DNA of 41,385 bases, taken from assembly GCA_034439735.1 (NCBI GenBank), contig JAWXAX010000069.1, positions 1-41,385 of the forward strand, given 5' to 3'. Both the position numbers and the translations under genes were made by a program. The notes beneath the pieces are model-generated. The model saw only the letters and a program-made list of their open reading frames with translations. It did no database searches and was not told the origin of the DNA. This stretch comes from Rhodothermales bacterium (GTDB lineage: Bacteria > Bacteroidota > Rhodothermia > Rhodothermales > JAHQVL01). Shown piece after piece: positions 23,446 through 34,511 of this stretch; position 1 is the stretch's first letter; each line of letters opens with the position of its first letter.

Positions 23446-23775
23446 GTAGCTATAGGACTGCCTGGGCCGAAGACCCGAAGGGTTTTGGAAACCCTTCGGG
23501 TCTCGCGCGGTCGGGCTTTAACGTAGAAGACACATTCTGGACGAGATTTGTACCCTGCCGGCGCATTTTTTTCCGACACTTCACATCCGCCGCTCCAGAA
23601 TAGCTCCCAAATCGGTGCCAGATTCGTCCCATCCGGGTGCGGGTATCGACCGTTCGGCGGCTAGAATCGACGCCGTCACGATCTTGCGCCACCCTTTTGC
23701 CGGCGTTTGCCAATTCGACAGGCAGCGATTAAGTTCTCGTGGACTTCGATGGGTCCACGTTGATACCTCAAACCA
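23446..23775. other. Divergent gap containing a perfect palindrome
   Basis: 330 bases between the DUF502 start and the NCS1 permease start, holding the promoter of the rhamnose/lactate operon. A perfect hairpin lies at 23471-23503 (see separate entry). No Bacteroidota-type promoter was identified with confidence. Confidence 0.4.
23471..23503. repeat. Perfect intergenic hairpin, gacccgaagggt family
   Basis: Two 15-base arms (23471-23485 and 23489-23503) around a 3-base loop, perfectly complementary. The core gacccgaagggt is shared with the hairpin at 966-994. There is no T-run on either side, so it is not a standard terminator. Confidence 0.7.
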
Positions 23776-25170
23776 ATGGCCGCACCTTCCGTCGCCGAAC
23801 GTCTCGACGCCCTGTACGAATTCGATCGAGAGCCCGTGTCATCGGATCGCCTCCAGGGTCCCACTAGCTTCATCGGCATCTACGCCGGCGAACATGTCGC
23901 CGGCACCGAGTTCGTTATCGGGCCTCTGTTTGTGGCGCACGGCGTCGCCGCGGTGGATTTGTTTCTGGGACTGCTGGTCGGCAATCTGCTCGCCGTGCTT
24001 AGCTGGGCGTTCATCACGGCGCCCATCGCCACCCGCACCCGGCTGAACCTGTACTGGCAGCTGCGCAAAATCGCCGGCCCCTACCTGCTGTTCGCGTACA
24101 ATATCGTGAACGCGCTCATGTTCTGCTTCCTCGCCGGCTCGATGATCTCCGTCGCGGCGACGGCCGTCGGGCTACCGTTCGGGATGGATATGCCGAGTTT
24201 GAACGACGTGTACCCGAACTCAGTCGGCTGGGTGGTGGTTGTGTTGCTCGTTGGCGCCGTGGTGACCGTGCTCGCCATCCTGGGTTTTGAGAAAATCGCC
24301 TGGTTCTCGAAAATTGCGGCGCCGTGGATGTTTCTGGTCTTCATCGCCGCCGGCGTCGCCGTCCTTCCCCAACTCGGAGTGACGTCGTTCAGTGAGTTCT
24401 GGACTGTGGCAAACGATAAGATCTGGACCGGCGTGCCGCAGGCCGGCCGCGTTCACTTCACGTTCTGGCATGTCCTCTTTTTTGCCTGGTTCTGCAACAT
24501 GGCGATGCATATCGGGATGGCGGATATGACGCTCCTGCGCTACGCAAAATCGTGGAAATATGGATTTTTGAGTGCCTTTGGCATGTACCTCGGCCACTAT
24601 GTCGCCTGGATCGCCTCGGGCATTCTGGTGGCGCTCGCCATTCAAAACGGCGGCGAAGTGGCGCCGGGCCCGATTGCCTTCCTGGGCGCCGGAGTCGCGG
24701 GCGCCATCTGTGTGATCATCGCCGGTTGGACGACCGCCAACCCGACGATTTACCGCGCCGGCCTCGCCCTGCAGACGATCAGCCCCAACTGGAAACGATG
24801 GAAGGTGACGCTGGCTGTCGGCGTCATCACGACGATCGCAGCGCTTTTTCCCGCCATCATGATGCAGCTGCTGGATTTCGTGGCGCTGTACGGCCTCGTG
24901 CTGATGCCAATGGGCGCCGTCATCTTTGCCGATTACTGGATCCTGCCGCGCCTCGGCCTCCGGCAGAACTTCGCGGAATGGAAGGGGCTGGCGTTCAGCT
25001 GGCCGGCGGCGGTGAGCTGGGGAGGCTCCCTGCTTATCTGCTTCCTCCTCCCGATAGAGATCTTCTTCAAAGGCCTGCCCGGCTGGTTTATCGCTACGAT
25101 TCTCTACATCGGACTCTGTCGGGTCCAGCAGCAGCGGACATCCACCCGAACCATCGAACAACCGGTATGA
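23776..25170 (+). CDS. NCS1-family permease (cytosine-permease-like)
   Basis: 464 residues with about 12 membrane helices. Recognisable segments are SFIGIYAGEHVAGTEFVIGP, LFLGLLVGNLLAVLSWAFIT, APIATRTRLNLYWQLRKIAG and a long C-terminal helix array ending WFIATILYIGLCRVQQQ. The pattern of an early gap followed by GLxxGNLLAVLSW and TRTRLNLYW fits the NCS1/cytosine permease family, which moves nucleobases and related compounds with sodium or protons. Here it is first in the rhamnose/lactate operon, so sugar import is the contextual guess; the family does not usually carry sugars. Its stop overlaps the next gene by 4 bases. Confidence 0.8.
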   Translation: MAAPSVAERLDALYEFDREPVSSDRLQGPTSFIGIYAGEHVAGTEFVIGPLFVAHGVAAVDLFLGLLVGNLLAVLSWAFITAPIATRTRLNLYWQLRKIAGPYLLFAYNIVNALMFCFLAGSMISVAATAVGLPFGMDMPSLNDVYPNSVGWVVVVLLVGAVVTVLAILGFEKIAWFSKIAAPWMFLVFIAAGVAVLPQLGVTSFSEFWTVANDKIWTGVPQAGRVHFTFWHVLFFAWFCNMAMHIGMADMTLLRYAKSWKYGFLSAFGMYLGHYVAWIASGILVALAIQNGGEVAPGPIAFLGAGVAGAICVIIAGWTTANPTIYRAGLALQTISPNWKRWKVTLAVGVITTIAALFPAIMMQLLDFVALYGLVLMPMGAVIFADYWILPRLGLRQNFAEWKGLAFSWPAAVSWGGSLLICFLLPIEIFFKGLPGWFIATILYIGLCRVQQQRTSTRTIEQPV

Positions 25171-25340
25171 AACCCATCGCCAAACTTGTTTCGCTGGCGG
25201 CCCTGGCGCTGACCGTCGTGCCGGCCTTCCTCGTATTCGCCGGCTCGCTTTCCTGGGATCGACACGCGTGGCTGATGTTGGTCGGTACCGTGCTCTGGTT
25301 CGTGAGCGCGCCGCTGTGGATGAAACAATCGGAAGCGTGA
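25167..25340 (+). CDS. 57-residue two-helix membrane peptide
   Basis: ATG overlaps the permease stop (ATGA), so the two are translationally coupled. The peptide has two hydrophobic helices, LVSLAALALTVVPAFLVFAG and WLMLVGTVLWFVSAPLWM, joined by SLSWDRH. No known domain. Position directly behind the permease and one base before rhaI suggests a small accessory subunit or stabiliser of the transporter. Confidence 0.7.
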   Translation: MKPIAKLVSLAALALTVVPAFLVFAGSLSWDRHAWLMLVGTVLWFVSAPLWMKQSEA

Positions 25341-25341
25341 T

Positions 25342-26625
25342 ATGCTACAGCCCGACGTTGTCGCACGGCAGAACGCCATCCTCCAGCAGGCCCACGAGGC
25401 CGACATCCGCCATCTCGGTGAGCAACTCGCCCGGCGTGGGGCCGATTTAGACCACGTCATCGAGGCGGTTCGCCAGTTCGAAGTCGCCATCCCGTCCTGG
25501 GCGCTCGGTACCGGCGGCACGCGCTTCGGCCGTTTCCCCGGTGCCGGCGAGCCGCGGGATATCTACGAAAAGATGGAGGACATCGCCGTCATTCAGCAGT
25601 TGATGCGGACCTGTGGTAAGGTGTCACTCCATATCCCGTGGGACGAGCCCGACGACGCGGCCGCCCTGAAGGCACACGCCGGCTTGCTCGGCCTCGGGTT
25701 CGACGCCGTCAACTCGAACACCTTTCAGGACCAGGCCGGCCAGGCGCATAGCTACAAGTTCGGCTCGCTGTGCCACACGAGCGCCGATGTCCGACACCAG
25801 GCCATCGAGCACCACCTGCACGTCATCGAAGTGGGGAAGACGCTCGGGTCCGACGCCATCACGGTGTGGCTCGCCGATGGAAGCAACTACCCGGGGCAGG
25901 CGCATCTGCGCAAGAGCTTCGAGCGGACGCTGGATGGATTGCAGACCCTTTACGCCGGCCTGCCCGCCGACTGGCGGCTGTTCACCGAGCACAAGCCGTA
26001 CGAGCCGGCGTTTTACTCGACTGTCGTGCAGGACTGGGGCTCGTCCTACCTCCTCGCCTCGGCCCTCGGCCAGCGCGCGTTCTGCCTCGTGGACCTCGGG
26101 CACCACCTGCCCAACGCGAATATCGAGCAGATCGTGGCCCGCCTCATCGGCGCCGGCAAACTCGGCGGCTTCCATTTTAACGACTCGAAATACGGGGACG
26201 ACGACCTCACGACTGGCTCCATCCGGCCCTACCAGCTCTTCCTCGTGTTCAACGAACTGGTGGATGCCGCGCGCGACCGGGTGCCGAACTTCAAGCCGGC
26301 GTACATGATCGACCAGAGTCACAACCTGAAGGACCCCATCGAGGCCCTCCTCCAGAGCGTGCAGGAACTCCAGCGCGCCTACGCCAAAGCACAGCTCGTG
26401 GACCGCGAGGCGCTGGACGGCTATCAGGAGTCGAACGACGCTTTGATGGCGGAAATGACGCTCAAGGCGGCCTTCGAGACCGACGTGCGGCCGCTCATCG
26501 CGGAAGCCCGCCGGCGCAACGGCGGCGCCCTCGACCCGATTCGCACATTCCGGCACTCGGGGTACCGCGAGGCTGTCGCCGAGTCCCGCTACACCGCCGC
26601 CTACATGCCGCCGCAAAGCCTGTGA
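25342..26625 (+). CDS. rhaI: L-rhamnose isomerase (Pseudomonas stutzeri type)
   Basis: 427 residues of the xylose-isomerase-like TIM-barrel family, subtype RhaI. Metal and substrate ligands are visible in FTEHKPYEPAF (Glu), FCLVDLGHHLPNANIEQI (Asp, His) and FHFNDSKYGDDDL (His, Asn, Asp). The N-terminus has FEVAIPSWALGTGGTRFGRF, a signature of this subtype. It converts L-rhamnose to L-rhamnulose, the first catabolic step. The C-terminal tail IRTFRHSGYREAVAESRYTA is also typical. The start follows the stop of the small membrane peptide by a single base. Complete and in frame. Confidence 0.93.
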   Translation: MLQPDVVARQNAILQQAHEADIRHLGEQLARRGADLDHVIEAVRQFEVAIPSWALGTGGTRFGRFPGAGEPRDIYEKMEDIAVIQQLMRTCGKVSLHIPWDEPDDAAALKAHAGLLGLGFDAVNSNTFQDQAGQAHSYKFGSLCHTSADVRHQAIEHHLHVIEVGKTLGSDAITVWLADGSNYPGQAHLRKSFERTLDGLQTLYAGLPADWRLFTEHKPYEPAFYSTVVQDWGSSYLLASALGQRAFCLVDLGHHLPNANIEQIVARLIGAGKLGGFHFNDSKYGDDDLTTGSIRPYQLFLVFNELVDAARDRVPNFKPAYMIDQSHNLKDPIEALLQSVQELQRAYAKAQLVDREALDGYQESNDALMAEMTLKAAFETDVRPLIAEARRRNGGALDPIRTFRHSGYREAVAESRYTAAYMPPQSL

Positions 26626-26628
26626 AGG

Positions 26629-26714
26629 GGTTTAAGGTTTGAGGTTCTCGGTTTAAGGTCGTGTGTGGAGGTCGTTGCGACATCCCTTTTCATTTTTCCC
26701 TTTTCATTTTTCCC
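26629..26714. repeat. Short direct repeats between rhaI and rhaB
   Basis: Two kinds of repeat fill this gap. GGTTTAAGGT-type units occur at 26629-26660. Two exact 14-base units (cccttttcattttt) occur at 26684-26697 and 26698-26711, directly before the probable TTG start of rhaB. No gene or terminator. Confidence 0.7.
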
Positions 26715-28121
26715 TTGCCCTCCCCCCCCACGTACCTTGCATTTGATCTGGGCGCCTCCAGCAGCCGGGCTGTTCTGGGCATCTGGGACGGGGATCACAT
26801 GCGTCTGGAGGAGGTGCACCGCTTCGTCACCCCGATCGTCGAAGCGGGGGAGCGGTTATACTGGGACCTGGAGGCGATCGAGCGCGAACTCCACGCCGGC
26901 GTGCTCCGCGCGCTGGGGATGACGGACCGGCTGCGCTCCGTTTCGGTCGATGCCTGGGGGGTGGATTACGTGCCGCTCGACGCCTCCGGCCGGCCGTTGC
27001 GCCGGCCGTTTTGTTACCGCGATCCACGGACGAACGGGGTGATGGAGCGGGCGTTCGGCGTCGTCCCGAAGGCCGATATTTACCGTCAGACGGGCATCCA
27101 GTTTTTGCCGTTTAACACCCTTTACCAGGTGCTTGCCGACCGCGAGGCCGATTCCGAGGCGCTCCGCTGGGTCCATCGCCACCTGTTTCTGGCGGATTAT
27201 CTGCATTACCGGCTATGCGGAGTGGCCGTCACCGAGTTGTCGATCGCCAGCACGAGTCAGATGATGGACGTATCTACTCGTCGATGGGCCGCGCCGATGA
27301 TGGCTGCGTTTGGTCTCTCCGCCGGCCAGTGGACGGACATCGTGCCCTCCGGGACGATACTCGGCCCGCTCCATGCCGCGCCGGGCGTTCAGGCGATCGC
27401 CACCTGCTCACACGATACCGGCTGCGCCATCGCGGCGGCGCCGGCGACACCGTCATCCGGGCGATGGGCCTACATCAGTTGCGGGACGTGGTCGCTGCTC
27501 GGTGTAGAACGGACGACTCCACGGCCGACGGTCGCCGCCCGCGAGGCCGGGTATACCCATGAGGCCGGCGTCGACGGCACCATCCGGTTTCTGAAAAATC
27601 TGACCGGTCTCTGGTCGCTCCAGGAGTGTATGCGGGAGTGGGCCGAGGCTGGCGATGGCATCGGATGGCCGGCGTTGATCGAAGCCGCGCGTGCGGAAGG
27701 GCCGGCGCCGTCGCTGATCGACCTGGAAGACGCTCGGTTTCTGGCGCGGGGCGGGATGGAAGCGCGGCTGCGCGGCTGGCTGCGCGAACACGGAGCGCCG
27801 CAGCCGGCTTCGCGCGGCGCGCTGGCGCGTATGGTGCTCCAGAGCATCGCCGAAAGTTATCGCCGGGCGCTGGCCGATCTGGAAGCTGTGCTCGGCGAAA
27901 CCATCGACACCCTCCATCTATTCGGTGGAGGTGCGCAAAATACGCTACTTTGCACGCTGACGGCCGCCGCCTGTAGCCGCCGCGTCGTGGCCGGCCCCAC
28001 CGAGGCGACCGTGTTGGGCAATGTGCTCATCCAGGCGCGCGCCGTGGGCGATTTGCCGGCCGGCCTCAGCCTGCACGAAGCCGCCGCGCGCTCTTCGGAC
28101 CTCGTGGAATACGGGCCATGA
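26715..28121 (+). CDS. rhaB: Rhamnulokinase
   Basis: FGGY carbohydrate kinase. From the TTG at 26715 it has 468 residues, with the ATP phosphate motif YLAFDLGASSSRAVLG right at the N-terminus. A GTG at 26661 would add 18 residues read through the direct repeats and is less likely. Other motifs are VSVDAWGVDYVPLDASGR (substrate Asp), CSHDTGCAIAA, WAYISCGTWSLLGVE and the C-terminal LHLFGGGAQNTLLCTLTAAA. It phosphorylates L-rhamnulose at O1. Codons 3-5 include an eight-C run (26722-26729), which would be a weak point for frame slippage. rhaEW follows after about 30 bases. Confidence 0.9.
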   Translation: MPSPPTYLAFDLGASSSRAVLGIWDGDHMRLEEVHRFVTPIVEAGERLYWDLEAIERELHAGVLRALGMTDRLRSVSVDAWGVDYVPLDASGRPLRRPFCYRDPRTNGVMERAFGVVPKADIYRQTGIQFLPFNTLYQVLADREADSEALRWVHRHLFLADYLHYRLCGVAVTELSIASTSQMMDVSTRRWAAPMMAAFGLSAGQWTDIVPSGTILGPLHAAPGVQAIATCSHDTGCAIAAAPATPSSGRWAYISCGTWSLLGVERTTPRPTVAAREAGYTHEAGVDGTIRFLKNLTGLWSLQECMREWAEAGDGIGWPALIEAARAEGPAPSLIDLEDARFLARGGMEARLRGWLREHGAPQPASRGALARMVLQSIAESYRRALADLEAVLGETIDTLHLFGGGAQNTLLCTLTAAACSRRVVAGPTEATVLGNVLIQARAVGDLPAGLSLHEAAARSSDLVEYGP

Positions 28122-28151: not shown

Positions 28152-30314
28152 ATGCAAAATCTCTGGGACGACGCCGTCGCCGATCGCCTCGACCCCGTAG
28201 GCCGGCTCGTCTATCGCTCGAACCTATTGGGCCAGGACTGGCGGATCACGAACACCGGCGGCGGCAACACCTCCGCGAAGCTGATGGAGAGAGACCCGAT
28301 GACCGGGCATACCGTCGAGGTCCTCTGGGTCAAAGGCTCCGGCGGCGATCTGCGTACGGCGAAGCGTGAGCATTTTGCCTCGTTGTATCAGGATCGACTA
28401 ATCGCTCTACAGGCCATCTATGCCGGCCTCACCCCGCGCGGCCCGAAGACGCCGGCGGAGGATGCGATGGTGGACATGTACCGCCACTGTACGTTTAACC
28501 TGAACCCACGCGCCTCGTCGATCGACACGCCGCTTCACAGCTTCGTGCCCCACAAACACGTCGATCACACACATCCCGTGGCCTGCATCGCGCTGGCCAC
28601 GGCCGAGAACGGGCCGGCGCTGACCCGCGAGGTGTATGGCGACGACGTGATTTGGGTCGATTGGCAGCGGCCCGGATTCGAACTTGGCCTGACGTTGCAA
28701 GACGTCTGCCGTCGGCACCCGAACGCGCGGGGCGTCATGCTCGGCGGCCACGGCCTCATCAACTGGGCGGAGGACGATCGCGCCTGTTACCGGCTGAGCC
28801 TGGAGCTGATCGAGAAGGCGGCCGCGTTTCTGGCCGCGCGCGACAAGGGTCAGGCCGTGTTCGAGGGGGCGAAGTATCCGTCGATGCCGGCGGCGGTTCG
28901 GGAAGATACACTGGTCGGCCTGCTGCCGTGGCTGCGCGGGCGTCTGGGGCAGGAACAGCGGATGATCGCTACGGTGGAGGCTTCGCCGTCGGTGCTGGAA
29001 TTCGTCAACTCCGCCGCCGCGTCGCGCCTCGCGGAGCTGGGCACCTCGTGCCCGGACCACTTTCTGCGGACGAAGATCAAGCCACTGTACATCGATTGGA
29101 ATCCCCACGCCGAGTCGCCCGGCGATCTCCATAAAAAACTCGACGCCGGCATCGCCGCGTACCAGGCCGATTACGCGGCCTATTACCAGGCTTGCAAGCG
29201 GTCCGACTCGCCGGCGATGCGCGGCGGCAGTCCTACGGTGGTGCTCATTCCCGGGCTGGGCATGATCGCCTGGGGGAAAACGAAGAGCGAATCCCGCGTA
29301 ACGGCCGAGTTTTACACCTGCGCCATTGAAGTGATGCGGGGCGCCGAGGCTGTGGATACCTACACGGCCCTGCCACGCCAGGAGGCGTTCGACATCGAAT
29401 ACTGGGCGCTGGAAGAGGCCAAGCTGCAGCGGATGCCGCGGGAGCAGGAGCTGTCGCGGCGGATCGCGATCGTGTTCGGCGCCGGCAGCGGCATCGGCAA
29501 GGAATCGGCCGGCCGGCTGGCCGCGGAGGGCGCCGTCGTGGTGGCGGTGGACCTGCAGCAGGAAGCGGCGGACCAGACCGCTCGGGAGATTCTCGCCCGG
29601 GTGGGAGCCGGCATCGGGGTGGCCGGCACCGGTATCTCCGGATGCGGCGACGCGATCGGGCTGGCGGCCGACGTGACCGACCGCGACGCGGTGGCGGCGG
29701 TGCTCCGACAGGTCGTGCTGGCCTATGGCGGGCTGGACATCGTCGTGTTTACCGCGGGGCTGTATGTCGCACCTGACGCACAGGGACGGGTAGCGGATGG
29801 GGCCTGGATGAAGACCTTCGCCGTCAACACAATGGGGCCGAACATCGCCGCCGAGGAGGCCGCCGGCATCTGGCGGGCGCAGGGGCTGGCCGGCAGCATG
29901 GTCGTCACCACCAGCGTCAACGCCGTCGTCGCGAAGCGCGGCAGCATCGCCTACGATACCAGCAAGGCTGCGGCCGACCACGTCATCCGCGAGCTGGCCA
30001 TCGAGCTCGCGCCGCTGGTGCGGGTGAACGGCGTGGCGCCGGCCACGGTAGTCGCCGGCAGCGCGATGTTTCCGCGGGACCGCGTCATCGCCTCGCTCAT
30101 CAAATACGGCATCGCCTGGAGCGACGCGGAGACGACCGAGGCCCTGCGCGATAAACTCGCGGCCTTCTACAGCCAGCGCACCCTCACCCGCAAAGCCATC
30201 ACCCCCGCCGACCAGGCGGAAGCCATCTTCCTCCTCGCCAGCGACCGGCTCGCAAAAACCACCGGCCAGATCGTCAATGTGGATGGCGGGCTGGCAGAGG
30301 CTTTCCGCCGCTAA
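28152..30314 (+). CDS. rhaEW: Rhamnulose-1-phosphate aldolase / lactaldehyde dehydrogenase fusion
   Basis: 720 residues in two domains. Residues about 1-430 are a class II aldolase: ITNTGGGNTSAKL, LWVKGSGGDLRT, HSFVPHKHVDHTHP (zinc histidines) and GVMLGGHGLINW. Residues about 440-720 are a short-chain dehydrogenase: VFGAGSGIGKESAG (NAD site), VTTSVNAV, YDTSKAA (Tyr and Lys) and IVNVDGG. This fused type cleaves rhamnulose-1-phosphate to DHAP and L-lactaldehyde and oxidises the latter to L-lactate. The product feeds the lactate oxidation genes immediately downstream. The hydrogen donor/acceptor (NAD or NADP) is not settled by the motif alone. Complete and in frame. Confidence 0.9.
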   Translation: MQNLWDDAVADRLDPVGRLVYRSNLLGQDWRITNTGGGNTSAKLMERDPMTGHTVEVLWVKGSGGDLRTAKREHFASLYQDRLIALQAIYAGLTPRGPKTPAEDAMVDMYRHCTFNLNPRASSIDTPLHSFVPHKHVDHTHPVACIALATAENGPALTREVYGDDVIWVDWQRPGFELGLTLQDVCRRHPNARGVMLGGHGLINWAEDDRACYRLSLELIEKAAAFLAARDKGQAVFEGAKYPSMPAAVREDTLVGLLPWLRGRLGQEQRMIATVEASPSVLEFVNSAAASRLAELGTSCPDHFLRTKIKPLYIDWNPHAESPGDLHKKLDAGIAAYQADYAAYYQACKRSDSPAMRGGSPTVVLIPGLGMIAWGKTKSESRVTAEFYTCAIEVMRGAEAVDTYTALPRQEAFDIEYWALEEAKLQRMPREQELSRRIAIVFGAGSGIGKESAGRLAAEGAVVVAVDLQQEAADQTAREILARVGAGIGVAGTGISGCGDAIGLAADVTDRDAVAAVLRQVVLAYGGLDIVVFTAGLYVAPDAQGRVADGAWMKTFAVNTMGPNIAAEEAAGIWRAQGLAGSMVVTTSVNAVVAKRGSIAYDTSKAAADHVIRELAIELAPLVRVNGVAPATVVAGSAMFPRDRVIASLIKYGIAWSDAETTEALRDKLAAFYSQRTLTRKAITPADQAEAIFLLASDRLAKTTGQIVNVDGGLAEAFRR

Positions 30315-30324
30315 GCGGCGGAAA

Positions 30325-30414
30325 GGGTTGCAGGTTGGCAGGTTACAGGTTCTTTAGACTGATTCCGTGCGCCATGTCATAGTTTGCTTTCAATAACCTG
30401 CCAACCTGCAACCC
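30325..30414. repeat. Perfect 21-bp inverted repeat between rhaEW and lutA
   Basis: Arms 30325-30345 and 30394-30414 are perfectly complementary, enclosing a 48-base loop. The arms contain the word ttgcaggttggcagg and its complement. The structure sits ten bases after the rhaEW stop and could form an RNA stem within the operon transcript. It lacks a T-run, so it is not a plain terminator. Confidence 0.8.
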
Positions 30415-30473
30415 GCCCACCTGCAACCTGCCCACCTGCAACCTGCCCACCTGCAACCTGCCCACCTGCAACC
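30415..30473 (+). repeat. Four 15-bp tandem repeats abutting the lutA start
   Basis: The unit gcccacctgcaacct occurs at 30415, 30430, 30445 and 30460 (the last copy one base short), and ends exactly at the ATG of lutA. The unit length is a multiple of three and leaves the upstream frame open, so an in-frame extension reading PPATC repeats is possible but not protein-like. Confidence 0.85.
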
Positions 30474-31214
30474 ATGACCGTCGCACTCTTCGTCCCCTGT
30501 TACATCGACCAGTTTTACCCGCAGGTCGCGGTGGCGACGCTGACGCTGCTCGAGCGGCTGGGCTGCGAGGTGGCGGTGCCGGCGGGGCAGACGTGTTGCG
30601 GGCAGCCGCTGGCGAATGCGGGGTTCGAGGCGGAGAGCCTCCCGATCATGCGCCGGTTCGCGGGCACGTTCGACGGATTCGACTACATCGTCTCACCCTC
30701 CGGGAGCTGCATTTTGCATGTCAAGGAGCACTACACCCGCCTCGGCGATCCGGCCCTCATCGAGCGCCTCCACGACAGGACCTTCGAACTCTGCGCCTTC
30801 CTGACGGACGTCCTCCTGGTCGACCGCCTGGATGCCCGGTTTCCGCACCGCGTGGGGATCCACGAGAGCTGCCACGGGCTGCGCGGGCTCCGGCTCGGGA
30901 AAAGCTCGGAGCGCAACGAGCCGGCGTTCAGCAAGCCGCGCCGGCTGCTGGAGATGGTGGATGGGATCGAGCTCATCGACCTGGACCGGTCCGACGAATG
31001 TTGCGGCTTCGGCGGCACCTTCGCGGTGAACGAAGAGGCCCTCTCCGTAAAGATGGGGCGCGACCGGTTGCGCGACCACGAGCGCCACGGCGCCGAAGTG
31101 ATCACCGGCACCGATATGTCCTGCCTGATGCACCTCGAAGGCCTCGGCCGGCGTGAAAAACGGCCGCTGCGGTTTGTTCATATTGCTGAAATACTGGCAG
31201 GAGCGGGTGATTAG
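30474..31214 (+). CDS. lutA: L-lactate oxidation complex subunit LutA (LldE-like)
   Basis: 246 residues from the ATG at 30474. The earlier open frame from 30384 merely reads through tandem repeats. It is a two-CCG-domain protein: VALFVPCYIDQFYPQVAVAT and AGQTCCGQPLANAGFEAES in the first half, IHESCHGLRGLRLGKSSE and DECCGFGGTFAVNEEALS, then GTDMSCLMHLEG, in the second. The cysteine sets bind an iron-sulfur cluster. LutA with LutB and LutC oxidises L-lactate to pyruvate in B. subtilis and relatives. Its place after rhaEW fits oxidation of the lactate made from rhamnose. Confidence 0.9.
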   Translation: MTVALFVPCYIDQFYPQVAVATLTLLERLGCEVAVPAGQTCCGQPLANAGFEAESLPIMRRFAGTFDGFDYIVSPSGSCILHVKEHYTRLGDPALIERLHDRTFELCAFLTDVLLVDRLDARFPHRVGIHESCHGLRGLRLGKSSERNEPAFSKPRRLLEMVDGIELIDLDRSDECCGFGGTFAVNEEALSVKMGRDRLRDHERHGAEVITGTDMSCLMHLEGLGRREKRPLRFVHIAEILAGAGD

Positions 31215-31347: not shown

Positions 31348-32718
31348 ATGTCACACTCCGAAGCCGCCGCCCGATTTCTTGCCGACGAGGCCCGCACAGA
31401 CTGGCACGATGCGTCGCTCTGGTTTGTCCGCGAGAAGCGCGACCGGGCGAGTGGGGTCGTGGGGGAGTGGGAGGCCTTGCGAGAGCGGGCGTCGCGGATC
31501 AAAGAGCATACGCTGACGCATCTGGACACATATCTCGAGCAGTTTGAGCGGCAGGCGCTGGCGAACGGGGTCCAGGTGCATTGGGCGAAGGATGCCGCCG
31601 AGCACAACCGGATCGTTTTGGAGATCCTCCAGCGGCACGGCGTACAGCGGTTGGTGAAGAGCAAGTCCATGCTCACGGAGGAGTGCCATCTCAACCCGTA
31701 TCTGGAGCGGGCCGGCGTGGAGGTGGTGGACACCGACCTCGGCGAACGGATCGTGCAACTGCGGGACGAGCCGCCGAGCCACATCGTCCTGCCGGCGATC
31801 CACCTGAAAAAGGAAGACATCGGGGTGCTGTTTCACGAGAAGCTGGGCACGGAAGCCGGCGCGACGGACCCAAAGTACCTCACCGAGGCGGCACGACAGC
31901 ACCTGCGGACGCGTTTCCTGGCAGCTGAAGCGGCCATCACGGGCGTGAATTTCGCTGTGGCGGAGACGGGCGGGTTCGTCGTCTGCACCAACGAGGGGAA
32001 CGCAGATCTCGGCGTGCACCTGGCGAAGGTGCACATCGCCTGTATGGGGATCGAGAAGCTCATCCCACGCTCGGACGACCTGGGGGTGTTCACCCGGTTG
32101 CTGGCGCGGAGCGCCACCGGTCAACACCTCACCGTCTATACATCCCACTTCATCCGCCCGCGGCCGGGCGCCGAGTTGCATGTCGTGCTCGTGGACAACG
32201 GCCGGACGGAGCAGTTGAGCCGGCCGGACTTCTGGCGCTCGCTGAAGTGTATTCGCTGCGGGGCGTGCCTCAACACGTGCCCCATCTACCGCCGCAGCGG
32301 CGGGCACAGTTACGACGCCACGATCCCTGGCCCCATCGGCGCGATCCTGTCGCCGGGGCAGGATCTCATGAAACATAGCAGTCTCCCGTTCGCCTCCACG
32401 CTGTGCGGTTCGTGCAGCGATGTGTGCCCGGTCAAGATCGACATCCACGAGCAGCTGTACCGGTGGCGGCAGATCGTTGTACGGGCCGGCCACGTGCCGG
32501 CCAGCAAGAAGCTGGGGATGCGGATGGGCGGCTGGGTGCTGCGGAGCGCGGGCCGGTTCGCCTGGGCGGGCGCGCTGGGGCGCCGGGTGATCCGGTTCAC
32601 GCCGGCCTGGCTCACGCGGCGGCTGCCCTGGGGGCGGGACCGCGAGTGGCCGGCGCCGGCGAAGCAGCGGTTTCAGGCGTGGTATAAAGCAAACAGGCCG
32701 CAGGGAGGCACCCCATGA
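31348..32718 (+). CDS. lutB: L-lactate oxidation iron-sulfur subunit LutB
   Basis: 456 residues. The N-terminal two thirds is an LUD-type domain (VHWAKDAAEHNRIVLEILQR; KSMLTEECHLNPYLERAGVE; ETGGFVVCTNEGNADLG). The ferredoxin-like part has one complete 4Fe-4S motif CIRCGACLNTCPIYRRSGGH and a second cysteine set LCGSCSDVCPVKIDIHEQLY. The C-terminus is a cluster-linked helical tail. It is the central electron-carrying subunit of the LutABC lactate dehydrogenase. The last codon region overlaps lutC by 4 bases, so those two are tightly coupled. Confidence 0.92.
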   Translation: MSHSEAAARFLADEARTDWHDASLWFVREKRDRASGVVGEWEALRERASRIKEHTLTHLDTYLEQFERQALANGVQVHWAKDAAEHNRIVLEILQRHGVQRLVKSKSMLTEECHLNPYLERAGVEVVDTDLGERIVQLRDEPPSHIVLPAIHLKKEDIGVLFHEKLGTEAGATDPKYLTEAARQHLRTRFLAAEAAITGVNFAVAETGGFVVCTNEGNADLGVHLAKVHIACMGIEKLIPRSDDLGVFTRLLARSATGQHLTVYTSHFIRPRPGAELHVVLVDNGRTEQLSRPDFWRSLKCIRCGACLNTCPIYRRSGGHSYDATIPGPIGAILSPGQDLMKHSSLPFASTLCGSCSDVCPVKIDIHEQLYRWRQIVVRAGHVPASKKLGMRMGGWVLRSAGRFAWAGALGRRVIRFTPAWLTRRLPWGRDREWPAPAKQRFQAWYKANRPQGGTP

Positions 32719-33293
32719 GCAGTCGTGAAACCATCTTGCAGGCGATCCGGGCGCACAAGCCGGCCGGCGTGCCGCGTCCTGAATCCCCTGCGATCACCTC
32801 GTCGGATCCGGAAACCCTCGTCGCCGCCTTCGAAGCGATGGTTCAGGCGATCGGGGGACGTGTCGAGCGCACAAGCCGCGCCGGCGCGGCGGACGCTGTC
32901 GCCCGCGCCTACCCCGACGCCCGGGTGGTGGCTTCGGCCGTGGCCGGGATAGCCGGGACCGTCAGGCTGGAGGAAGTGGGTGATCCACACGACCTCGCCG
33001 GCCTCGATCTGATGGTGCTGGAGGGGGACTTGGGGGTGTCCGAAAACGGAGCCGTGTGGGTCTATGAACATCAGATGGTGCACCGCGCCGCGCCGTTTAT
33101 TGCGCAGCATCTGGCGATCGTGCTCGACGCCGGCCGCCTCGTGCCCGACATGCACGCCGCCTACGCGGCCGTCCGGACGGACATCGAGGGCTTCGGCGTC
33201 TTCATCGCCGGACCGTCGAAGACGGCCGACATCGAGCAATCGCTGGTGCTGGGCGCGCATGGACCGCGGAGTCTGCTTGTTGTGCTGGTGTAG
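32715..33293 (+). CDS. lutC: Lactate utilisation protein LutC (LUD domain)
   Basis: 192 residues of the LUD fold: RETILQAIRAHKPAGVPRPE at the N-terminus, PDARVVASAVAGIAGTVRLE in the middle, LDLMVLEGDLGVSENGAVWV, and a C-terminal IEGFGVFIAGPSKTADIEQS followed by GAHGPRSLLVVLV. These are family signatures; the GPSKTADIE segment is especially diagnostic. It completes LutABC. The start is the ATG that overlaps the lutB stop. The next gene follows after a short gap and is a separate function (aldose epimerase), though it may still be on the same transcript. Confidence 0.9.
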   Translation: MSSRETILQAIRAHKPAGVPRPESPAITSSDPETLVAAFEAMVQAIGGRVERTSRAGAADAVARAYPDARVVASAVAGIAGTVRLEEVGDPHDLAGLDLMVLEGDLGVSENGAVWVYEHQMVHRAAPFIAQHLAIVLDAGRLVPDMHAAYAAVRTDIEGFGVFIAGPSKTADIEQSLVLGAHGPRSLLVVLV

Positions 33294-33356
33294 GTGGCGG
33301 ATTTCATCCGCGTACCGTACCATGACGCCTCAGTCCATGCTCATATCCCCACGCCC

Positions 33357-34511
33357 ATGAACGTCTCCACGCTCCGCATAGCCGCCCTGGTCGCCGGCGG
33401 TCTGTTGTTCGCCAGCTGCAAACCTTCCGACGATATGCCCGCCGCCGATCTCCCTAAAATCCTAAGCACCTCGTTTGGCACGACCCCGGAGGGCGCCAGT
33501 GTCGGTCTGTATACCCTCATGAATACGAGCGGTATGGAAGTGACGCTCACGGCGTACGGGGCCATCGTGACGTCCATCAAAGCGCCCGATCGGGAAGGAC
33601 ACTACGCCGAAGTGACGCTCGGGTACGACAATCTGGAGGCCTACCTCGCCGGCAGCCCGTTTTTCGGCGCCGTCGCGGGGCGATACGCCAACCGCATCGG
33701 CAACGGTCAGTTTTCGCTGGATGGCACCGTATATACGCTCGCCAAAAACAACGGCCCTAACAGCCTCCATGGTGGTATAAAAGGGTTCGACAAACAAATC
33801 TGGTCCGCCAACCCGATCGAGAACATGAACGGGGTGGGGATCGAGTTTACCTACGCGAGCGCCGACGGCGAAGAAGGGTATCCGGGCCGGCTCGACGTTC
33901 GGATCACGTATACGCTGTCCAACGACAACACCTTGCGCATCGACTACGAGGCGCGGACGGACAAGCCGACGGTTGTCAACCTCACGAATCACACCTATTT
34001 CAACCTGAAGGACGCCGGCAAGACGTCGATCCTGGGCCACGAGGTTCGCCTCAACGCAGACCGCTACACCCCGATCGACGCGACGCTCATCCCGACCGGT
34101 GAGCTCGCGCCCGTGGCTGGCACGCCGTTCGACTTCACGACGCCCCATACGATCGGCGAGCGGATCGATGCCGACGATACACAGATCGCCTACGGGATGG
34201 GCTACGACCACAACTTCGTGTTGAACCGGGAAGGGGAGGGTCTGCAACTCGCCGCGGAAGTGTACGAGCCGACCACCGGCCGCGTCCTCCAGGTCCACAC
34301 CACCGAGCCGGGCGTCCAGTTCTACACCGGCAACTTTCTCGACGGATCCTTCGTCGCCCCGGACGGCGCCCCGTATGCGCGGAGGACGGGCTTCTGCCTG
34401 GAGACGCAGCATTTTCCGGATTCGCCTAACAAGCCGGATTTCCCCTCGACTCGCCTCGACCCCGGGCAGGTCTACCGCAGTTCAACCACCTTCACGTTCT
34501 CGGCCCGGTAA
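33357..34511 (+). CDS. galM: Aldose 1-epimerase (galactose mutarotase) lipoprotein
   Basis: 384 residues from ATG 33357, with a lipoprotein signal (IAALVAGGLLFASC). A GTG at 33294 would place 21 residues before the signal and is rejected. The mutarotase core has LTAYGAIVTSIKAPDREGHY, VTLGYDNLEAYLAGSPFFGA, AGRYANRIGNGQF, NGPNSLHGGIKGFDKQIW (catalytic His), VNLTNHTYFNL (catalytic His region), MGYDHNFVLN, and the C-terminal YTGNFLDGSF and FCLETQHFPDSPNKPDFPST with the catalytic Glu. It interconverts alpha and beta anomers of hexoses in the periplasm, which would help sugar uptake. Confidence 0.93.
   Translation: MNVSTLRIAALVAGGLLFASCKPSDDMPAADLPKILSTSFGTTPEGASVGLYTLMNTSGMEVTLTAYGAIVTSIKAPDREGHYAEVTLGYDNLEAYLAGSPFFGAVAGRYANRIGNGQFSLDGTVYTLAKNNGPNSLHGGIKGFDKQIWSANPIENMNGVGIEFTYASADGEEGYPGRLDVRITYTLSNDNTLRIDYEARTDKPTVVNLTNHTYFNLKDAGKTSILGHEVRLNADRYTPIDATLIPTGELAPVAGTPFDFTTPHTIGERIDADDTQIAYGMGYDHNFVLNREGEGLQLAAEVYEPTTGRVLQVHTTEPGVQFYTGNFLDGSFVAPDGAPYARRTGFCLETQHFPDSPNKPDFPSTRLDPGQVYRSSTTFTFSAR

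Follow-up and report, generated by a model that had tools for sequence, protein, structure and literature searches.

How does L-rhamnose enter a cell whose rhamnose operon carries a single transporter gene, and one related to the NCS1 family? CodB, the cytosine permease, and Mhp1, the hydantoin permease, belong to NCS1 (TC 2.A.39), and RhaT is an L-rhamnose:H+ symporter of the DMT superfamily. The question is raised by a 41,385-nucleotide stretch of Rhodothermales DNA (the window), a single contig from a genome of 5.1 Mb, in which a sequence-only reading had proposed an NCS1-type permease and a 57-residue membrane peptide as a rhamnose importer. We put a probability of about 75% on the following answer: the permease is the operon's L-rhamnose importer, an NCS1-fold symporter that is probably Na+-coupled, with the two-helix peptide as its accessory subunit.

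A rhamnose operon with one transporter

The cluster runs from the permease through the peptide, rhaI, rhaB, rhaD and lutABC to galM (Table 1). No second transporter was found in it, and the description of the permease as the operon's sole transporter holds for this whole set of genes. The permease is present in a single copy in the window's genome. Its ORF shares the four bases ATGA with that of the peptide, as had been noted from the sequence, and rhaI starts one base past the peptide stop. An inverted repeat, cccgaaggg...cccttcggg, lies at 23468-23495 of the window in the gap 5' of the permease and resembles a terminator of one of the flanking genes.

Table 1. Genes of the rhamnose cluster, with positions in the window and the evidence for each.
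Feature	Position	Strand	Evidence
Permease, NCS1-related, 464 aa, 12-TM LeuT/NCS1 fold	23776..25170	+	ORF, model, fold, co-occurrence
Two-helix membrane peptide, 57 aa	25167..25340	+	Profile homologs, spacing, dN/dS, fused homolog
rhaI, L-rhamnose isomerase	25342..26625	+	TIGR02629, 649 bits (cut-off 646.75)
rhaB-like rhamnulokinase (FGGY)	26661..28121	+	FGGY_N/C; TIGR02627 E 4e-118, below its cut-off
rhaD, bifunctional rhamnulose-1-phosphate aldolase / short-chain dehydrogenase	28152..30314	+	NF006189, 1063.7 bits (cut-off 634); TIGR02632, 975.7 (cut-off 567.75)
lutA-like CCG-domain subunit, L-lactate oxidation	30384..31214	+	PF02754; LdhH/GlcF-like
lutB-like iron-sulfur subunit	31348..32718	+	TIGR00273, 410.8 bits (cut-off 444.8, not reached); LUD domain
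lutC-like ORF	32715..33293	+	Position; homologs adjoining LutB in related loci
Aldose 1-epimerase (GalM-like) ORF, cluster end	33294..34511	+	Named from sequence reading alone

Fold and family of the permease

The permease was modelled from an alignment of 63 homologs (pLDDT 87.5, pTM 0.87). In fold comparison, the best match to the model was CodB (Z 37.7, 392 residues aligned, rmsd 2.8), followed by Mhp1 (Z 31.7), with the next family at only 25. The likeness to CodB and Mhp1 covers almost the entire chain, at 17% sequence identity. Alignment of the permease profile with CodB and two NCS1 homologs by HHalign gave a probability of 97.3 (E 2.5e-11), and TIGR00800 matches 7 of the 63 family members, the best of them at E 3e-13. 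The NCBIfam matches of the window permease itself, to cytosine permease and CytX, are weak (41 and 38 bits, where the cut-offs exceed 300).

The Pfam NCS1 model, PF02133, matched none of 30 family members at E<=1 and none of the permease places in 29 genomes. The window permease is without any Pfam match, including to the RhaT family (PF06379). Searches of the PDB with the permease sequence and profile returned nothing, not even CodB or Mhp1, which were matched only in the fold comparison and by HHalign. The label "NCS1-type" in the sequence-only reading is thus true as regards fold and remote homology, but does not extend to recognition by PF02133. Because Pfam's model misses the permease, annotation pipelines may leave it nameless or label it as a cytosine permease.

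Substrate and Na+ sites

In CodB, cytosine is sandwiched between Trp108 of TM3 and Phe204 of TM6, and this aromatic pair (TM3 Trp, TM6 Phe/Trp) has been described as conserved across all NCS1 proteins (PMC9379551). We looked in the permease for these substrate residues of cytosine and hydantoin carriers and did not find them matched. In the HHalign alignment, the Trp108 column corresponds to Leu119 (63 of 63 homologs) and the Phe204 column to Ala243 (61 of 63), an assignment to be read with the reservation that the alignment of TM3 and TM6 is possibly shifted by about one turn and that a nearby invariant residue, W238, remains structurally possible as an aromatic. A Trp was also sought at positions 113-122, and none was present in the 63 homologs. 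The loss of the stacking aromatics, which is good evidence short of a structure, speaks against a nucleobase as cargo and is in keeping with a polar one. Since the aromatic pair was tested for and not found, we do not file the family as canonical NCS1; judged by its alignment, it is probably an NCS1-related sister family with an NCS1/LeuT-fold-like mechanism.

The Na+ of CodB is held in part by Thr278 and Thr279 (PMC9379551). These residues of the Na2 site in TM8 align with T319 and T320 of the permease, which are invariant in the 63 homologs, and CodB Tyr285 likewise has an equivalent in the alignment. With the Na2 site intact, the permease is probably Na+-coupled. Further invariant polar residues lie at the TM1 break (E39, H40, T44, and E45), in TM3 (N112), and in TM6 (N241 and H245).

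The 57-residue peptide and its link to the permease

To place the pair in a wider context, we used two collections: the best-scoring 80 of 500 homologous loci, which describe the side of the family nearest the window, and a fixed set of 296 Bacteroidota genomes. The sources of the loci are titled Rhodothermales, KSB1, Aminicenantes, Vicinamibacteria, Gemmatimonadetes, Ignavibacteriae, Calditrichota, and Neomarinimicrobiota, together with many Bacteroidota.

No family in Pfam or NCBIfam fits the peptide, in keeping with the earlier statement that it belongs to no known family. When 47 of its homologs were compared with Pfam, only scattered chance-level matches were obtained, and no curated family of small transporter subunits was among them. 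A profile built up from the peptide of the window matched in 19 of the 29 loci L031-L059, which are neighbour loci in 28 related genomes, and among the best 80 of 500 loci the peptide is near the permease in 76. It lies directly 3' of the permease on the same strand in 71 of those, with the exact 4-base overlap in 33 of the 71 and a spacing of -8 to +44 bases in 68. Two of the four loci lacking the peptide are contigs that end shortly past the permease (L112 and L124). The median dN/dS of the peptide is 0.10 over 16 close pairs, indicating purifying selection. From its recurrence, its position after the permease and this dN/dS value, the peptide is a genuine gene and no chance ORF. Its consensus core reads SxxGLxLTIxPSxLVFxGxIxxxxxKxLMxxGTxLWFxxAPFWM.

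Among the 296 genomes, all 22 strong peptide matches fall in permease genomes and none elsewhere. The seven permease genomes without a strong match form two branches, a Flavobacteriaceae-type branch and one of permeases of about 572 residues; in a quick tree of the family, long branches make the deep joins unsure. Permeases of the Flavobacteriaceae type sit in rhamnose loci from which the peptide is absent (L052, L054-L056, and L196-L210), which shows that it is not universally required. Several of these loci carry an FMN-type L-lactate dehydrogenase-like gene in place of LutABC.

The permeases of about 572 residues (L057-L059, L175, and L182-L194) have an extra C-terminal segment with two hydrophobic helices. 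The profile of this segment and that of the peptide match over their whole length (HHalign probability 91.6, score 38.8, P 8e-7), whereas 81 controls, comprising 21 windows taken along the permease alignment and 60 profiles with shuffled columns, reached at most 2% and a score of 16.2. A class-wide search for further fused permeases returned, besides the query, only unfused ones; the fused ones were found by the family search. Such a natural fusion argues for a physical association of peptide and permease. A mannitol/polyol dehydrogenase adjoins the fused permeases in 14 of 14 loci checked, so this sister branch, too, has the look of a sugar carrier, and its members are likely polyol importers. 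In one fused locus (L057), a PfkB kinase follows.

We also modelled one relative (L070) as a continuous chain in which translation passes the permease stop and runs on into the peptide (pTM 0.82). The peptide forms two helices in this model, with pLDDT of about 81-89, and the linker is disordered, which is compatible with docking. In a VIA-align comparison of the fused model, no listed match spans the peptide helices, a result that says nothing about novelty.

The peptide could instead be a separate small membrane protein of rhamnose operons, such as a RhaI partner or a general membrane factor, and no subunit of the permease. Of the related genomes in the same class, nine suit this view, since their peptide adjoins RhaI and RhaD separates it from the permease, as does the rhamnose-linked clade that has no peptide. 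However, the peptide follows the permease also where RhaI is not nearby, no strong match occurs apart from the permease in the 296 genomes, and its relative is fused to permeases that adjoin a polyol dehydrogenase; we regard this explanation as unlikely. The partnership suggested by the sequence-only reading is supported by exclusive co-occurrence and by the fusion in a sister clade, but not for the rhamnose-linked clade that lacks the peptide. We propose that the peptide is a two-helix accessory subunit, translationally coupled to the permease, which it would bind directly.

Linkage to rhamnose genes and replacement of RhaT

We then considered the genes around the permease. Called permease ORFs from other genomes were available in 79 of the best 80 of 500 loci, and 55 of these adjoin rhamnose-catabolic or alpha-L-rhamnosidase genes. 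A core rhamnose gene (RhaI, the unrelated isomerase RhaA, RhaD, or the FGGY kinase) lies at most six genes away in 40 of the 79, and in 15 further loci a GH78 or GH106 alpha-L-rhamnosidase is the sole rhamnose link. The remaining 24 are without rhamnose genes nearby; 13 of them have six or fewer neighbours visible and 11 have ample context. The permease-peptide pair occurs beside rhamnose genes and not beside purine genes. Of the two observations that would have told against the sequence-only reading, matching substrate-site residues and a place beside purine genes, neither was made. A regulator of the GntR type, with a domain resembling sugar-binding ones, is found near the permease in 22 loci (for example L101 8842-9891 and L107 8783-9832), and may be a rhamnose regulator.

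The set of 296 Bacteroidota genomes contains the permease in 29, RhaI in 49 and RhaT in 28. RhaI is present in 27 of the 29 permease genomes, compared with 22 of the 267 others (p 1e-22, a significance inflated by kinship), and the two permease genomes without RhaI have only the polyol-linked fused form. The 49 RhaI genomes divide into 25 with the permease only, 20 with RhaT only, two with both, and two with neither (Fisher p 3e-9); because genomes share descent, the Fisher p-values are too small. Within one mixed family of the sample (f26), the permease is found in two genomes and RhaT in six, and both in none. The RhaT model is absent from the window's genome, while control genomes score positive. 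Seven ABC sugar-binding proteins of that genome are weakly RhaS-like, all far under the RhaS cut-off, and could be alternative rhamnose carriers.

The replacement of RhaT by the permease among RhaI genomes provides strong independent support for the importer reading. Together with the linkage to rhamnose genes, it upholds the earlier proposal on genomic grounds, and we infer that rhamnose is the substrate of the permease.

A related compound could be the cargo instead: a rhamnoside, another 6-deoxyhexose such as L-fucose, L-lyxose, or a product of the pathway (L-lactaldehyde, L-lactate, or 1,2-propanediol). Some neighbourhoods point this way. The permease-peptide pair adjoins a fucose/arabinose-isomerase-like gene in an Ignavibacteria locus (L074 4506-6005) and a class II aldolase in a KSB1 locus (L081 8286-9701), hinting at sugar substrates other than rhamnose, and some permease homologs may carry other sugars. 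Two homologs lie close to a RhaT-family gene (L109 11570-12706 and L125 4572-5624), as exceptions to the replacement pattern, and LutABC is a frequent companion of the cluster. Against this, permease and RhaT interchange among RhaI genomes, the rhamnosidase is the sole rhamnose neighbour in some loci, and loci such as L087, L092, and L122 have RhaI with no LutABC nearby. Taken together, we assign a related cargo a low probability. It is very improbable that the permease carries nucleobases or allantoin in the ordinary way and adjoins rhamnose genes by chance: it has the NCS1 fold and a remote similarity to the CodB and CytX models, but its link to rhamnose genes recurs in several phyla and already disfavours this explanation, both stacking aromatics are lost in the alignment, and the Pfam NCS1 match is absent.

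A model for rhamnose uptake and comparison with known systems

With the permease as rhamnose importer, the pathway would run as follows. Alpha-L-rhamnosidases would free L-rhamnose, which the permease would take up by alternating access, with Na+ at the Na2 site as the probable driver and with the nucleobase-stacking aromatics presumably replaced in its binding site. RhaI, RhaB, and RhaD would turn the sugar into L-lactaldehyde and L-lactate, and LutABC may oxidise these products. The peptide, co-made with the permease through translational coupling, likely stabilises, inserts, or tunes it. From genome comparisons, permease and peptide appear to form the rhamnose import route in many Bacteroidota and neighbouring phyla. 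We also consider it fairly probable that they belong to a large NCS1-derived family, spread over several phyla, that moved from nucleobases to sugars and polyols. Its main branch would carry rhamnose and its fused branch a mannitol-like polyol, and the family would work with a dedicated two-helix subunit that is either separate or fused.

The permease resembles CodB and Mhp1 in its fold, its profile homology, the threonine pair of the TM8 Na2 site, and the equivalent of CodB Tyr285. Unlike them, it has invariant Glu39, His40, Thr44, and Glu45 at the TM1 break, lacks the TM3 Trp and the TM6 Phe/Trp in the alignment, is linked to sugar genes, and comes with a small partner. Our search of the open-licence literature found no earlier report of NCS1 with rhamnose, a sugar, or mannitol. 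If our reading is right, NCS1-type carriers would gain a new class of substrates and, as far as that literature shows, their first accessory subunit, and the NCS1 scaffold would prove convertible from flat aromatic bases to sugars.

With RhaT, the permease shares the proposed role and the operon position, and the two substitute for each other among RhaI genomes, although their families are unrelated. Known rhamnose carriers are RhaT, the rhizobial ABC system RhaSTPQ, and the MFS protein RhaY, and a 2013 survey of rhamnose transporters names no NCS1 protein (PMC3870299). RhaSTPQ and RhaY likewise serve rhamnose uptake and adjoin rha genes (PMC3870299), but they belong to other transporter classes, and no RhaS scores above its cut-off in the window's genome. 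An importer of the kind proposed here would account for the way in which many Bacteroidota and related phyla that lack RhaT and degrade rhamnose-rich polysaccharides take up the sugar.

For the peptide, the closest parallel is SGLT2, a LeuT-fold sugar carrier for which single-helix MAP17 is a required auxiliary subunit (PMC10803289). Both cases would pair a LeuT-fold sugar carrier with a small auxiliary membrane subunit. MAP17 has one TM helix, compared with two in the peptide, and the kinship is one of analogy only. If the peptide is indeed a subunit, the pair would offer a simple bacterial model of how a LeuT-fold sugar carrier works with a small subunit.
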